Assembly (NCBI GenBank): GCA_012839705.1
Contig: DUMT01000064.1
Coordinates: 1 to 33,540, forward strand
Direction of reading: 5' to 3'
DNA from: Clostridiales bacterium
GTDB taxonomy: Bacteria; Bacillota; Clostridia; Oscillospirales; Acutalibacteraceae
DNA: 33,540 nt
Part shown: in pieces, positions 12,170 through 18,740 of the stretch
How the letters are laid out: every line of letters starts with the position of its first letter
Numbering within the stretch: position 1 is the first letter of the stretch
Translations under genes and position numbers: made by a program
Notes under the pieces: model-generated
Databases searched by the model: none
The model's input: the letters and a program-made list of their open reading frames with translations, nothing else
Told to the model about the DNA's origin: nothing

Positions 12170-13018
12170 TTATTTTGCTATAAATGCTATACCAGTACAC
12201 CCAGGGCCTGCATGGGTGCCCACTATCGGGCCGATATCCGAGGCGTGGATTTCCCCGTTTTCCCAACCCTCAAACTCCTGTTTATACAGCGAAATCAGCT
12301 CCTCCATCCCGCCGGGAAAATCGGAGTGGCCGAAGTACACAGGATAGCTGAAATCTATGCCGTCCTTCTTTGCGTAGGACAAAACAGCCTGGTATCCAGC
12401 CTTAATCCCCCGCGCCTTGTCGATGCCTATAACCTTTCCTTCCTGTATGCAGATTATGGGTTTGATTCCAAGCAGGGTACCCACCACGGCTCCTGCCGAG
12501 GAAAGCCTGCCGCCCATTTTCAAATACTTCAAATCGCCCACTACGGCATAAAGCCTTACACGCTCCTTAATGCTTTCTATCTGCTCGGCAATGCTTTTCG
12601 CGTCCAAACCCTGGTTTCTCAAACGCACTGCGATTTCTACCAACAGCCCCAAACCAAAGGTGACGTTCAGGGTATTAACTACATAAATCGGTGCGCCGGG
12701 GAACTGTTCCTTTGCCACCAGGGCGTTATTATATGTACCGCTCATATGCCTTGAGATAGGCAGTACAACTATTTCATCCCCGGCATCCAGATATTCTTTA
12801 AAAACTTCCTCAAATTCAATCGGGTTTATCTGGACGGTTTTGGGCAGCTCCGTGGCAGTATACATCAATTGATAAAACTGCTGGATGGTAAGGTCCTGCC
12901 CGTCCACATACTCGTCATCCCCGAATATCACCTTAAAAGGCATTATTTTAATGTCCCATTCCTTTTGAATGGAAAACGGATGATCGCAGGAACTGTCTGT
13001 AATTATCCTAACAGCCAT
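12170..13018 (-). CDS. DegV family fatty-acid-binding protein
   Basis: MAVRIITDSSCDHP start, PISRHMSGTYNNA, GRLSSAGAVVGTLLGIKPII, IGPIVGTHAGPGCTGIAF hallmark motifs. Confidence 0.95.
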   Translation of the reverse strand: MAVRIITDSSCDHPFSIQKEWDIKIMPFKVIFGDDEYVDGQDLTIQQFYQLMYTATELPKTVQINPIEFEEVFKEYLDAGDEIVVLPISRHMSGTYNNALVAKEQFPGAPIYVVNTLNVTFGLGLLVEIAVRLRNQGLDAKSIAEQIESIKERVRLYAVVGDLKYLKMGGRLSSAGAVVGTLLGIKPIICIQEGKVIGIDKARGIKAGYQAVLSYAKKDGIDFSYPVYFGHSDFPGGMEELISLYKQEFEGWENGEIHASDIGPIVGTHAGPGCTGIAFIAK

Positions 13019-13237: not shown

Positions 13238-14005
13238 CTATCTCTGGCTGAATCTTGATAAGAAGGCTTTTGTGCGCTCGCTTTGGGGGTTTTCGATTAC
13301 CTGTTTTGGGTCCCCCTGTTCCACAATTACCCCTTCGTCCATGAATATTACCCTGTCGGAAACATCCCTGGCAAATGCCATTTCGTGGGTGACGATTATC
13401 ATGGTCATTTTTTCCTCTGCAAGGTTGCGTATAACCTTTAAAATCTCGCCGGTAAGCTCCGGGTCCAGGGCGGAGGTAGGCTCGTCAAAAAATAGTATGT
13501 CGGGGTGCATCGCAAGGGCGCGGGCAATTGCGACCCGCTGCTGCTGACCTCCCGAAAGCTCGCAGGGATAGGCGTTCGCCTTTTCTGCCAGCCCAACCTT
13601 GTCTAATAGCGCCATGGCTTCCTTTTCCGCCTCATCCCGGCTTTTGCCCGCCACATGGATGGGCGCCTCGGTTATATTCCTCAATACTGAAAAATGGGGA
13701 AACAGGTTGAAATTCTGGAACACCAGCCCAAATTTCCGCCTAATCTGCTGCAAAACAGGGGCAGGGCTGTAAACCGCTTTGCCGCTTGCAGCATCATTCT
13801 TCGCCATCACCAAATCCTCATAGGCAATATACCCTGAATCAATCCTCTCAAGAAGGGTAAGGCAGCGAAGCAGGGTGGATTTTCCCGAACCGGAGGGGCC
13901 AATAATGGACAAGACCTCCCCCTGGGAAATGTCAAAGGATATGCCCCGCAGCACAGGGTTTTTCCCAAAGGATTTTTGAATATCTGTTGCTTGTAATACC
14001 TTCAT
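13238..14005 (-). CDS. Amino acid ABC transporter ATP-binding protein (GlnQ-type)
   Basis: Walker [10 protein letters not shown], signature [15 protein letters not shown], Walker [15 protein letters not shown]. Start set at 14005 ([14 protein letters not shown]) instead of ORF-track 14086. Confidence 0.95.
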
Positions 14006-14033
14006 GGCCAAACCAAACCTTTCAATAACCCGT

Positions 14034-14714
14034 TTAACTGTAATACCCAAGGCGTTTTTCGGCTGCGGCAAAGCATCTGGACACAACCGCGTTCATTAAA
14101 AGATAGAATATGCCGGCAATCACCACTGGCAGGACAGACACATAGAATGCCTGCATTTTCTCGGCATAGGAGGTAATCTCCACAACACCGATAATCCGGG
14201 CAAGGGCGGTGTCCTTAACAAGGGTCATAAACTCGTTTCCCATGGGCGGCAGGATTTTCCGCACCACCTGGGGCAAGATTATCCTGAAAAATGTCTGCTT
14301 TTTTGAAAACCCCAGCACGTTGGCGGCTTCCCTCTGCCCTGCGGGGATGCTTTCTATACCACCGCGGTAGATTTCCGCAAAATAGGCAGCATAGTTTAAG
14401 GTAAAGGAGAATATCGCAACCTGAAGGCGGGAGAAAGTCACACTGGCCCCGAACGCATTGAAAAGCAGATTCTCAATGGCGGGCTTTACCCCATACATAA
14501 AGAATATAAGCTGCAGCATAAGGGGGGTTCCACGCATCACAAGCAGGTACCCCCTCATTATGTAGGACACCGGGCGGATGCGGGACATCCTGATAACAGC
14601 CGTCAGCAGCCCCAATGGCAGGGCAAAAAGCAGGGTCATAAAAAACAGTTGGAGGGTCGTTAAAGCATTCGACGTCAACTGCAGTGTAAAATTCAGGATT
14701 TTATCCCAAGTCAT
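14034..14714 (-). CDS. Amino acid ABC transporter permease
   Basis: HisM/GlnP-type permease; ...[50 protein letters not shown] loop. Confidence 0.95.
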
Positions 14715-14827: not shown

Positions 14828-15688
14828 TTATTTCTCCGCTGCGTTTGCAACTTCTTCAAGCTCGGCCAGGTGGGCGATGTAGTAGCGGGCTACAATTTCA
14901 TCCATAACCACCGCGTGGCCGGAACCATTCCTTAATTCAAACATGGCATTGACGTTATTGTTAACTTCAATTGCTTCCTTAACTATGTTTTTAATATCGG
15001 ATTTTTCAAAAGCCTCAACAGCAGTCGAGCCAGCCTGAAGAACAACGGTTTTTCCTTTCAAATCATCAAGCTTTGTAATACCGGTTCTCTTTGTGGTTAC
15101 GACAACCTGGCGGTTGTTCATGTAAGGCTCGGACAGGCACATTTTCTCTTTCCGCTCGTCGTTGATGGTCATACCGTTCCAGATGCAGTCAATATTGCCG
15201 GCGTTCAGCTCATTCACGTTCTGGGACCAGACAATGGGCTGAAGTTTAAGCTCAACACCCATCCTCTTGCAAACCTCTTTGGCAAGGTCGATGTCATAGC
15301 CAATGATTTCGCCATTATCCGTCTCGTAACCCATGGGCGGGAAGGAGGAGTCAAGGCCCAGCACCAGTACGCCCTTTTCCTTTATCTTATCAAGAGAATC
15401 ATCGTTTGTCTCGATGGGGGTGAAGGTGTCGGGAACGGTTGAAGTATCCTCTCCAAACCATTTCTTTGTAATCTCGGCAAGGGTGCCGTCTTTTTTCATC
15501 TCAACAAGGATTTTCTGAACTTCATTCCTGAGTGCCACATCAGCTTTGCGAAATCCGATGCCGTATTGCTCGTCCGCCAGCACCTCGTCCAGGATTATGT
15601 ATTCAACTTTTCCGCCGCTGCATCCAACGATTAAAGCCACTGCGAAAACTGCTGCGATTATCAAAGCAGCTATTCTAACCAGTTTCAT
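14828..15688 (-). CDS. Amino acid ABC transporter substrate-binding lipoprotein, apparently circularly permuted SBP_bac_3 fold
   Basis: Lipobox LIVGCSGG; then the segment normally at the C-terminus (YIILDEVLADEQYGIGFRKADVALRNEVQKILVEMKKDGTLAEITKKWFGED) precedes the normal N-terminus (LDKIKEKGVLVLGLDSSFPPMGYETDNGEIIGYDIDLAKEV...VVMDEIVARYYIAHLAE...). Confidence 0.9.
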   Translation of the reverse strand: MKLVRIAALIIAAVFAVALIVGCSGGKVEYIILDEVLADEQYGIGFRKADVALRNEVQKILVEMKKDGTLAEITKKWFGEDTSTVPDTFTPIETNDDSLDKIKEKGVLVLGLDSSFPPMGYETDNGEIIGYDIDLAKEVCKRMGVELKLQPIVWSQNVNELNAGNIDCIWNGMTINDERKEKMCLSEPYMNNRQVVVTTKRTGITKLDDLKGKTVVLQAGSTAVEAFEKSDIKNIVKEAIEVNNNVNAMFELRNGSGHAVVMDEIVARYYIAHLAELEEVANAAEK

Positions 15689-15917: not shown

Positions 15918-16751
15918 TTATTTAAGTTTATTTAAGCCGCGGTATATTTCTCCCTTTTTAATCCCCGTAACAGCCGCCGCCTGCTTTGCGGCTTCGGATG
16001 CCGACATACCCTCATCCATAAAATTCTTTGCGATTTCCACCGCCTGCTGGATGGTATATTCCTGCACAACCGTTTCCTCCGCTGCTCCTTCCACCACCAG
16101 AACGATTTCGCCCCTGGGGTTTTCGGTTTTAAACCTTTCCACCGCAGCGGAGAGCGTTGTCCTGATAACCTCCTCATGAACCTTGGTGAGTTCCCGTACA
16201 ATCGCAATTCTCCTGTCACCCAGTGTTGACAGAAGGTCATTCAGTGTTGAGGGCAGCTTGTGGGGGGCTTCGTAAAAAATCATAGTCCTCCGCTCATTGA
16301 TTAAGGATTCGAGGTGTTCCCTGCGGTTTTTGCGGTTCATGCTTAAGAATCCTTCAAAGGTAAACCTGCCGGTGGGAATGCCGGAAACAGCCAAAGCGGC
16401 AATCAGGGCGCTGGGTCCCGGCACCACACCGACGGAAATCCCCTCCTCATAACACAGGGCCACAATATCCTCGCCGGGGTCGGATATGGCGGGCATTCCG
16501 GCGTCAGTTACAAGGCAGCAGGTTTCTCCCGCTTTTATCCTTTCAACAATCTGTATGCCCCGCTCCCGCTTATTGTGCTCAAAGTAGCTTACCATCGGCT
16601 TTTTAATTTCAAAATGGTTCAGCAGTTTTAAGGTTACGCGGGTATCCTCGGCGGCAATAAAATCGCATTCCCTGAGGGCCTGAACCGCCCTTGGGGAAAA
16701 ATCCGACAGGTTCCCTATGGGAGTGCCAACCAAAATCAGCTTACCCGGCAT
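15918..16751 (-). CDS. rsmI: 16S rRNA (cytidine(1402)-2'-O)-methyltransferase
   Basis: LILVGTPIGNLSDFSPRAVQALRECDFIAAEDTRVTLKLLNHF, VTDAGMPAISDPGE, VVPGPSALIAALAVSG motifs. Confidence 0.96.
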   Translation of the reverse strand: MPGKLILVGTPIGNLSDFSPRAVQALRECDFIAAEDTRVTLKLLNHFEIKKPMVSYFEHNKRERGIQIVERIKAGETCCLVTDAGMPAISDPGEDIVALCYEEGISVGVVPGPSALIAALAVSGIPTGRFTFEGFLSMNRKNRREHLESLINERRTMIFYEAPHKLPSTLNDLLSTLGDRRIAIVRELTKVHEEVIRTTLSAAVERFKTENPRGEIVLVVEGAAEETVVQEYTIQQAVEIAKNFMDEGMSASEAAKQAAAVTGIKKGEIYRGLNKLK

Positions 16752-16757
16752 AAAACA

Positions 16758-17552
16758 TCACCTTTCAAGGTCATACACTTTTTTATAATCTTCAGTATAA
16801 TTCCCATCATAATCCCTGGCTATGAAAGGGGGAAGGATTTTAATGCCCTTTGACACCCCTTTTCTGGCTTCGCAAAGGAAAAGCCAGGGGGAAGAATTCG
16901 GGGTATGGTGGGCGAAAAGGATGCGTTTTGGCACCAGCCGCGCCTGGCTCAAAATTTCAAGTACATCCGCCAGCCTTTCGGGCCTGTGGCAAAAGCAAAA
17001 CCTTCCGCCCTGTTTTAACAGCCCGAAGGCGGCGTTTGCCACGTCAAGGAAGCTGCAGCCTTCCCCCTCGTGCCGGGCAATCCGGGCGGCGGGTGATTTG
17101 CTGAGTTCCCCGCTGCCGGCAGGAAAATACGGGGGGTTCATGGCTACAAGGTTCTGGGTGTTGGGCCCAAGGATTTCTTTCCAGTCCCTTAAATCAGCAT
17201 GATAAACTGTAATTCTGTCCTCTACTCCGCAGCGGCTCGCCGAGCGGCGGGCAAGTTCCACCGCCTCTTTCTGTATCTCAATGGCGGCAACAGACAGGGC
17301 CGGCTGCCTTCTGCACCACAGCAGCGGTATTATACCGCAGCCGGTGCCAAGGTCGCAGGCCTGCTCATTAGGTTTTGGGGACGCAAACCAGGCAAGGAGG
17401 TAGGAATCCGTCCCAAAACTGTGGTCCCGGGTAACCTCAGCCTGAAACCCGCCGCCTATATTTTCAATCCGTACTTCGCAGTTCAACGTAATCCCCCGCA
17501 TATCTTTTTCGGATACAATAATGCCGGGCAGCCAAAACAGCAAGCCCGGCAA
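16758..17552 (-). CDS. tRNA1(Val) (adenine(37)-N6)-methyltransferase-like (YabB/TrmN6)
   Basis: DLGTGCGIIPLLWCRR SAM motif and NPPYF catalytic motif; neighbour of rsmI. Start uncertain (ATG at 17501 is an alternative). Confidence 0.85.
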   Translation of the reverse strand: MPGLLFWLPGIIVSEKDMRGITLNCEVRIENIGGGFQAEVTRDHSFGTDSYLLAWFASPKPNEQACDLGTGCGIIPLLWCRRQPALSVAAIEIQKEAVELARRSASRCGVEDRITVYHADLRDWKEILGPNTQNLVAMNPPYFPAGSGELSKSPAARIARHEGEGCSFLDVANAAFGLLKQGGRFCFCHRPERLADVLEILSQARLVPKRILFAHHTPNSSPWLFLCEARKGVSKGIKILPPFIARDYDGNYTEDYKKVYDLER

Positions 17553-17576
17553 ATGCCAACCTTATAAATTTATGAT

Positions 17577-17747
17577 TTATTCCGGCTGGGGAGCACCTAC
17601 TGGACAAACATCAGCGCAAGTTCCGCATTCGGTGCAAGCATCCGCAGAGATTTCGTACTTGCCGTCACCCTCGGAGATGGCAGAAGTGGGGCACTCAGGC
17701 TCACAAGCTCCGCATGCAATGCAGTCGTCGTTGATAATATATGCCAT
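17577..17747 (-). CDS. 2[4Fe-4S] ferredoxin, 56 aa (not in supplied ORF track)
   Basis: Translation MAYIINDDCIACGACEPECPTSAISEGDGKYEISADACTECGTCADVCPVGAPQPE with two CxxCxxCxxxCP motifs; GGAGGTGC RBS upstream. Confidence 0.95.
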   Translation of the reverse strand: MAYIINDDCIACGACEPECPTSAISEGDGKYEISADACTECGTCADVCPVGAPQPE

Positions 17748-17870
17748 GGAAACGCACCTCCTTCGTATGTACCATTCAAAGGCTCAGGTTACCCTAAGCG
17801 CTCTATTAAATAATAACATACGAGGAGAAAAAATCAATGTTTTTTCTAAGATTTTTAAACTTGAATCTGC

Positions 17871-18740
17871 TTAATCATCCTCCAGGGCAAGAAGGTCCTC
17901 CACTTCCTCCTGGTCGATTTTGATCTGGGAATCCTTAATGACCGTTACATCCCGCCTGTGGACGGTCACCGGCGGTGAATCGGGAGCCCTGTCCAATACC
18001 ACTTTCAAACTGCCGGTCAGCAGGTTTGCTTCTGTCACCACTCCCCTGCCGTCCTTTGTATTGACAATGGCGCCCACCTTGGGGGTAATTTTGAGCAGTT
18101 CGTCATAGGTTTCCTGCTCATATTTAAGGCAGCACATCAGCCTGCCGCAGGAGCCGGATATTTTAGTGGGGTTGAGGGAAAGCCCCTGTTCCTTCGCCAT
18201 CCTGATGGAAACCGGCTGGAAGTCACTCAAAAACTGGGTGCAGCAGAATGACCGCCCGCAAATACCCAGCCCTCCCATCATTTTAGCCTCGTCCCTGACT
18301 CCGATTTGCCTGAGTTCTATCCGGGTGCGGAAAACCGAAGCCAAATCTTTAACAAGCTCCCTGAAATCAACCCGCCCGTCGGCGGTAAAATAAAAGAGTA
18401 TTTTGGAGTTGTCAAAGGTGTATTCCACATTAACAAGCTTCATTTCAAGACCGTGGGCCTTGATTTTCTCAAGGCAGATGCCAAAAGCCCGTTTTTCCTT
18501 CTCCATATTCTCTTTCAGGTGTTCAATATCCTCCGGCAGGGCAGGGCGGATCACCTTCTTTAATGGCTTTACCAGATCCGCATCGTCAACCTCCCTGTTT
18601 GTCAGTACAATTTCGCCGCATTCCAGGCCATGGGAGGTTTCCACAATAGCCATATCCCCCCGCTGGAACTGATGACCGTCGGGGTCAAAATAATAGAGCT
18701 TGCCCATGTTCCGGAATCGGATTCCTATTATTTCCGCCAT
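17871..18740 (-). CDS. ricT: PSP1 domain / stage 0 sporulation family protein (RicT, YaaT)
   Basis: Conserved GIRFRNMGKLYYFDP..., VDFRELVKDLASVFRTRIELRQIGVRDEAKMMGGLGICGRSFCC, SGSCGRLMCCLKYE. Confidence 0.95.
   Translation of the reverse strand: MAEIIGIRFRNMGKLYYFDPDGHQFQRGDMAIVETSHGLECGEIVLTNREVDDADLVKPLKKVIRPALPEDIEHLKENMEKEKRAFGICLEKIKAHGLEMKLVNVEYTFDNSKILFYFTADGRVDFRELVKDLASVFRTRIELRQIGVRDEAKMMGGLGICGRSFCCTQFLSDFQPVSIRMAKEQGLSLNPTKISGSCGRLMCCLKYEQETYDELLKITPKVGAIVNTKDGRGVVTEANLLTGSLKVVLDRAPDSPPVTVHRRDVTVIKDSQIKIDQEEVEDLLALEDD

Follow-up and report, generated by a model that had tools for sequence, protein, structure and literature searches.

A circularly permuted, putative amino-acid-binding lipoprotein of an ABC importer and its permuted relatives in Clostridia

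The permuted gene and its operon

The window (the whole stretch of DNA that was analyzed, 33,540 nucleotides) carries on its minus strand a gene for a putative amino-acid substrate-binding protein (SBP), behind which a permease gene and an ATPase gene lie on the same strand (Table 1), as the original prediction had described. The SBP frame is unbroken, again as predicted: a single intact ORF of 286 aa spans the minus strand between 15688 and 14828, where the plus strand carries stops. The permease, encoded by a single gene, presumably acts as a homodimer, and the true start of the ATPase is probably an internal ATG at 14002. The neighbors are ordinary, all on the minus strand: a DegV protein downstream of the operon (12170-13018) and, upstream (15918-18740), a TP_methylase (RsmI-like), an MTS methyltransferase, and a PSP1-domain protein.

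Table 1 Features of the window gene and its operon, followed by further loci named in the text.
Feature	Position	Strand	Details
Circularly permuted, putative amino-acid ABC substrate-binding lipoprotein	14828..15688	(-)	286 aa, ATG start, stop 14830..14828
Signal peptide and lipobox, residues 1-23	15620..15688	(-)	From translation; lipidated Cys is residue 23
Segment S3, residues 29-87	15428..15604	(-)	71% identity to L200 240-298 (of 300)
Segments S1 and S2, residues 88-273	14870..15427	(-)	63% identity to L200 48-234
New C-terminal tail, residues 274-286	14831..14869	(-)	Short predicted helix H252-263 (mature model), lower confidence
Arg179	15152..15154	(-)	Invariant in 40 site-A permuted proteins
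Asp263	14900..14902	(-)	Invariant in 40 site-A permuted proteins
Cognate permease, single gene	14034..14714	(-)	BPD_transp_1 E 3.8e-26; 62% identity to L200-side permease
Cognate ATPase	13238..14086	(-)	ABC_tran E 1.1e-34; closest NCBIfam model TcyN, under its cut-off
L082, site A, distant paralogue of the window gene	G000 contig 17, 1327-2193	(-)	Permease downstream
L083, site B (S2-S3-S1)	G000 contig 85, 847-1725	(+)	Permease directly after
L194, site C, cut inside lobe II after first helix region	L194:596-1417	(-)	
L195, site C, as L194	L195:486-1448	(+)	
L196, site C, as L194	L196:635-1498	(-)	
Two near-identical canonical SBP units and permease	L099:598-2958	(-)	787 aa
(S2-S3-S1)x4-permease	L116:617-4288	(+)	1224-aa frame; ATPase frame overlaps its end

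We describe the SBP_bac_3 fold as three segments, whose lobe and hinge assignment we take to follow the established GlnBP and LAO structures: S1 runs from the lobe-I N-terminal part to hinge 1 and the first lobe-II strand, S2 is the lobe-II body, and S3 leads from the last strand of lobe II through hinge 2 to the C-terminal part of lobe I. The canonical order is S1-S2-S3. The orders S3-S1-S2 and S2-S3-S1 are called site A and site B, and a cut inside S2 is called site C.

The window protein begins with a signal peptide and lipobox (the GC is residues 22-23), continues with YIILDEVLADEQYGIGFRK...KKWFGED and then LDKIKEKGVLVLGLDSSFPPMGYE..., and ends at VVMDEIVARYYIAHLAELEEVANAAEK. What follows the lipobox is S3, which ends with the old C-terminal tail and corresponds to the canonical C-terminus; the remainder holds the old N-terminal tail, the lobe-I N-terminal part, hinge 1, and lobe II up to the last helix. 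Since its order is S3-S1-S2 (site A) and not the canonical one, we file the protein as a permuted variant of SBP_bac_3.

The proposal that the canonical C-terminus stands right after the lipobox cysteine was confirmed by the translation and by comparison with a profile, solved structures, and an orthologue. SBP_bac_3 (PF00497) matches the protein with 137.4 bits, against a curated cut-off of 26.4, and does so in two stretches, the split match that had been suggested as a check. In a phmmer search of solved structures, residues 93-272 matched residues 5-188 of the 4ohn chain (i-Evalue 7e-37) and residues 29-84 matched residues 195-250 (i-Evalue 3e-5), in swapped order; 4ohn, a histidine-bound SBP, is the closest solved structure among the matches listed. 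A canonical-order orthologue, L200, was found beside an orthologous permease in genome G411, of the same family as the window genome, and BLAST aligned it with S3 (E 8e-25) and with S1-S2 (E 5e-83), L200 ending two residues past the match. At 71% and 63% identity and these E-values, a chance match is excluded. The two BLAST segments abut at window residues 87/88 with zero unmatched residues, and the linker is therefore made of the old C-terminal tail STVPD and, directly after it, ...DDSLDKIKEKG, the N-terminal tail of the old mature chain. At the sequence level, such a joining of old C-tail to old N-tail is the signature of a head-to-tail fusion.

Predicted structure, cut site, and function

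AlphaFold2 was run on the mature window protein with 40 site-A proteins. The structure prediction proposed as a check gave a confident fold for the window protein (pLDDT 94.4, pTM 0.89), with S3 residues mostly at 96-99, and with the new C-terminal tail, which varies between homologues, at 76 dropping to 67. The model and its Foldseek alignment to 4ohn (186 columns, rmsd 1.8) agree on a two-lobed fold with two hinge crossings; the alignment is limited to S1-S2 because the aligner depends on chain order. A BFVD fold search returned nothing relevant.

In the mature model, residues 8-24 form a single strand without a break (E8-24); alignment with canonical SBPs predicts that it starts in lobe II, crosses at hinge 2, and continues in lobe I. 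Since its course takes in the last strand of lobe II, the hinge, and the next strand of lobe I, the new N-terminus would precede the last lobe-II strand. The model thus places the new termini within lobe II, in the loop between the last helix and the last strand, and with the termini inside lobe II both hinge crossings would be kept. The original prediction of a natural circular permutation stands, while its cut between the lobe-crossing segment and the last lobe-I strand gives way to this lobe-II loop. Nor is the moved N-terminal piece made of lobe-I material only, as had been thought: in the model, it also takes in the last strand of lobe II and the hinge, ahead of the C-terminal part of lobe I.

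The hinge residue Tyr42 and residues Arg179 and Asp263 are invariant in 40/40 proteins from two distant site-A groups. From GlnBP and LAO structures, we take Arg179 to be the carboxylate-binding arginine and Asp263 the ammonium-binding aspartate of amino-acid SBPs. The ratio of nonsynonymous to synonymous proportions is ~0.1-0.25 in both S3 and S1-S2, with synonymous sites saturated, and nonsynonymous change is likewise low in the linker. The window gene is under purifying selection. In nearly every permuted locus of the window subfamily whose flanks are long enough, the SBP gene sits next to those for the permease and the ATPase; the adjacency check gave no match at L015 and L028. The nearest NCBIfam model for the ATPase is that of the cystine importer TcyN, with a score under its cut-off.

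Because the fold is predicted with confidence, the operon is kept, selection is purifying, the ligand residues are conserved, and a canonical orthologue exists, the locus is best read as a permutation that has kept its function, and the functional topology first proposed draws support from the same evidence. The order is a natural circular permutation of a protein that, judged from sequence, almost certainly still functions. We put at roughly nine in ten the probability that the gene encodes a lipid-anchored, naturally circularly permuted SBP (SBP_bac_3, Type II / Cluster F) that serves an ABC importer for polar amino acids. We infer that the protein would bind an amino acid, close like a normal SBP, and feed the adjacent permease.

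Other explanations were weighed against this reading. A permutation could be mimicked by an inversion or misjoin in the assembly, or by two partial genes taken for one, and the source assembly is fragmented (160 contigs). However, 11/12 genomes of the genus and dozens of assemblies besides show the same order, and the gene is one intact frame that starts with a signal peptide and changes little at nonsynonymous sites in S3, S1-S2, and the linker. Misassembly, which had been named as a ground for rejecting the prediction, and a frame break are ruled out by these independent assemblies, and we give an artefact of assembly or annotation next to no weight. A permuted protein could also have decayed or been repurposed, for example as a chemoreceptor or a scavenged fragment that no longer feeds a transporter, since SBP function is deduced here from sequence. 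The adjacency of permease and ATPase, the invariant ligand residues, and the purifying selection make this very improbable, as does a genome without a canonical SBP_bac_3 protein as a replacement. The order might instead serve oligomerization, with S3 of one chain completing lobe I of its neighbor. Domain swapping is known from Thermotoga ArgBP, and the linker of ~25 residues could permit it, but the monomer model is confident throughout and the linkers of other groups go down to 16-20 residues. Such short linkers favor closure within the chain, and we regard a domain-swapped dimer as improbable.

Spread and number of origins

All three SBP_bac_3 proteins of the source genome are permuted (two at site A, one at site B). 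Across the 12 genomes of the genus, 18 of the 24 SBP_bac_3 genes are permuted and 6 are canonical, and a window-type permuted gene is present in 11 of these genomes. Orthologues of the distant site-A paralogue L082 occur in several families of the order, and site-B forms in several other families of the phylum; a site-B relative, L122, was modeled by AlphaFold2 with pLDDT 92.8 and pTM 0.88. Further site-B permuted SBPs were seen in families f40 (L182-L184) and f79 (L185), possibly with separate origins. The three site-C loci have a permease-like frame downstream. All cuts seen, at the three sites, fall in lobe-II loops. The loci fetched hold 86 canonical, 54 site-A, and at least 13 site-B frames, counts that include duplicates and come from a sample biased to relatives.

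The proposed homologue search found the same order in many independent assemblies, and for the proposed phylogeny a tree was computed from 67 rows of the window subfamily with the segments reset to canonical order. This tree requires six changes of order. A single clade of all subfamily site-A rows was rejected by the AU test both with S3 (p 8e-5) and with S1-S2 only (p 1.7e-11). In pairwise one-clade tests, the window group was rejected as a clade with L020/L023 (p 0.017) and with L015/L026/L029 (p 0.007), and the Merdivicinus-type group was narrowly rejected with L020/L023 (p 0.04), while the window group was not rejected as a clade with the Merdivicinus-type group (AU p 0.33) or with L097 (p 0.27); these p-values are optimistic since the groups were defined only once the tree was known. 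Set against each other, the pairwise rejections and non-rejections support about three or more switches within the window subfamily. Further switches are supported besides, in the contig-17 group, which belongs to another branch, and at the other cut sites. When the canonical L200 row was added to the tree, it was placed among the window group with 100/99 support, as either a sister or a reversion.

One ancient permutation might still underlie all site-A proteins, the canonical forms lying outside the true clade or having been re-created later, and the compatibility of the window and Merdivicinus-type groups with one clade fits such a history. It is unlikely, given the position of L200 inside the window group and the rejection of a single site-A clade with and without S3, which disposes of a single-origin tree for the subfamily; a return to canonical order would, moreover, itself be a permutation. 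The permuted subgroup envisaged at the outset exists, but not as a single odd subgroup: it is one of several recurrent permutations in Clostridia.

Tandem duplication, known systems, and implications

The best-supported route to the window gene, we infer, is tandem duplication followed by trimming. A canonical gene would have been duplicated in frame, so that the C-tail of the first copy was fused to the mature N-part of the second, and deletion of S1-S2 from the first copy and of S3 from the second would then have left the order S3-S1-S2. Depending on the position of trimming, site A, B, or C could arise from one tandem canonical pair, and the cut would move the lipid anchor from lobe I to lobe II. 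In-frame fusions of tandem SBPs to a permease are plausible candidate intermediates. They include (S1S2S3)x2-permease fusions (L099, L189), (S2S3S1)x2-permease fusions (L117, L191), and the fourfold L116, alongside (S2S3S1)x1-permease fusions (L118, L190, L193). L099 reflects a recent duplication in frame, an event that might precede a permutation, and it is the closest tandem fusion to the window gene, though in another branch. In none of the genomes searched did we find the exact duplicated form from which the window gene would derive. Unequal crossing-over between two paralogues would leave traces similar to those of tandem duplication.

The known GlnPQ-type tandem SBP-permease fusions (6h30) carry head-to-tail units, and a site-A protein reads like S3 of unit 1 through S2 of unit 2; a permuted paralogue indeed aligns colinearly over the tandem-domain junction of 6h30. 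Unlike the window protein, these fusions are unpermuted and join at least two complete domains to the permease. With canonical SBP_bac_3 proteins (PF00497; GlnH, HisJ, ArtJ), the window protein shares the family, the predicted bilobed fold, the Arg/Asp pair, the hinge Tyr, and the operon, but its order is S3-S1-S2, and its termini and lipid anchor are predicted to lie on lobe II. Among the structure matches examined for the window protein, L082, L083, and L052 (the best 60 of 81-173 per query, with alignments for the best 2-3), no solved permuted Type II SBP was recognized.

The nearest parallel is TpMglB-2 (Tp0684) from Treponema pallidum, a Type I sugar SBP with a naturally permuted chain, whose structure has been solved and whose ligand binding has been shown; it defines a class named 'Type Ic / Cluster Bc', with relatives in Gram-positive gut bacteria, and its authors suggest that tethering may favor permutation (PMC4990184). 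The likeness is one of kind, not of membership, both being lipidated ABC binding proteins with a natural circular permutation. TpMglB-2 has the Type I sugar-binding fold, a different SBP class, whereas the matches listed for the window protein are Type II SBPs, mostly amino-acid binding, and not of the Type I (Cluster B) fold with sugar specificity. TpMglB-2 is also cut elsewhere and adds a fourth lobe crossing, while the window protein is predicted to keep both hinge crossings; and its moved segment shares little sequence with canonical proteins, in contrast to 71% identity here. The window case differs from TpMglB-2 in its fold class and its cut site, and in having a readable junction and recurring. 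We found no report of circular permutation in Type II amino-acid SBPs in the open-licence literature, and subscription papers could hold one.

Taken together, these results indicate that gut and anaerobic Clostridia have apparently permuted this SBP repeatedly and at several positions while keeping its fold and its transporter. Tentatively, and with somewhat more doubt than confidence, we hypothesize that the Type II amino-acid SBPs of Clostridia undergo recurrent, convergent permutation through cuts in lobe-II loops at three sites, driven by frequent tandem SBP duplication and by selection, in tethered receptors, for a shift of the lipid anchor or of the point of permease fusion to lobe II instead of lobe I, and that together they may form an undescribed permuted class. 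To our knowledge, few natural circular permutations have near relatives in both orders. Here, an orthologous locus is known in both orders at ~65% identity with a readable junction, so that duplication followed by trimming can be tested directly on a textbook fold. Since the membrane anchor would shift between lobes, the finding is relevant to the docking of tethered receptors on homodimeric permeases, and since Pfam and NCBIfam register these proteins only as split, partial hits, changes of order must be allowed for in profile searches and in the design of biosensors.
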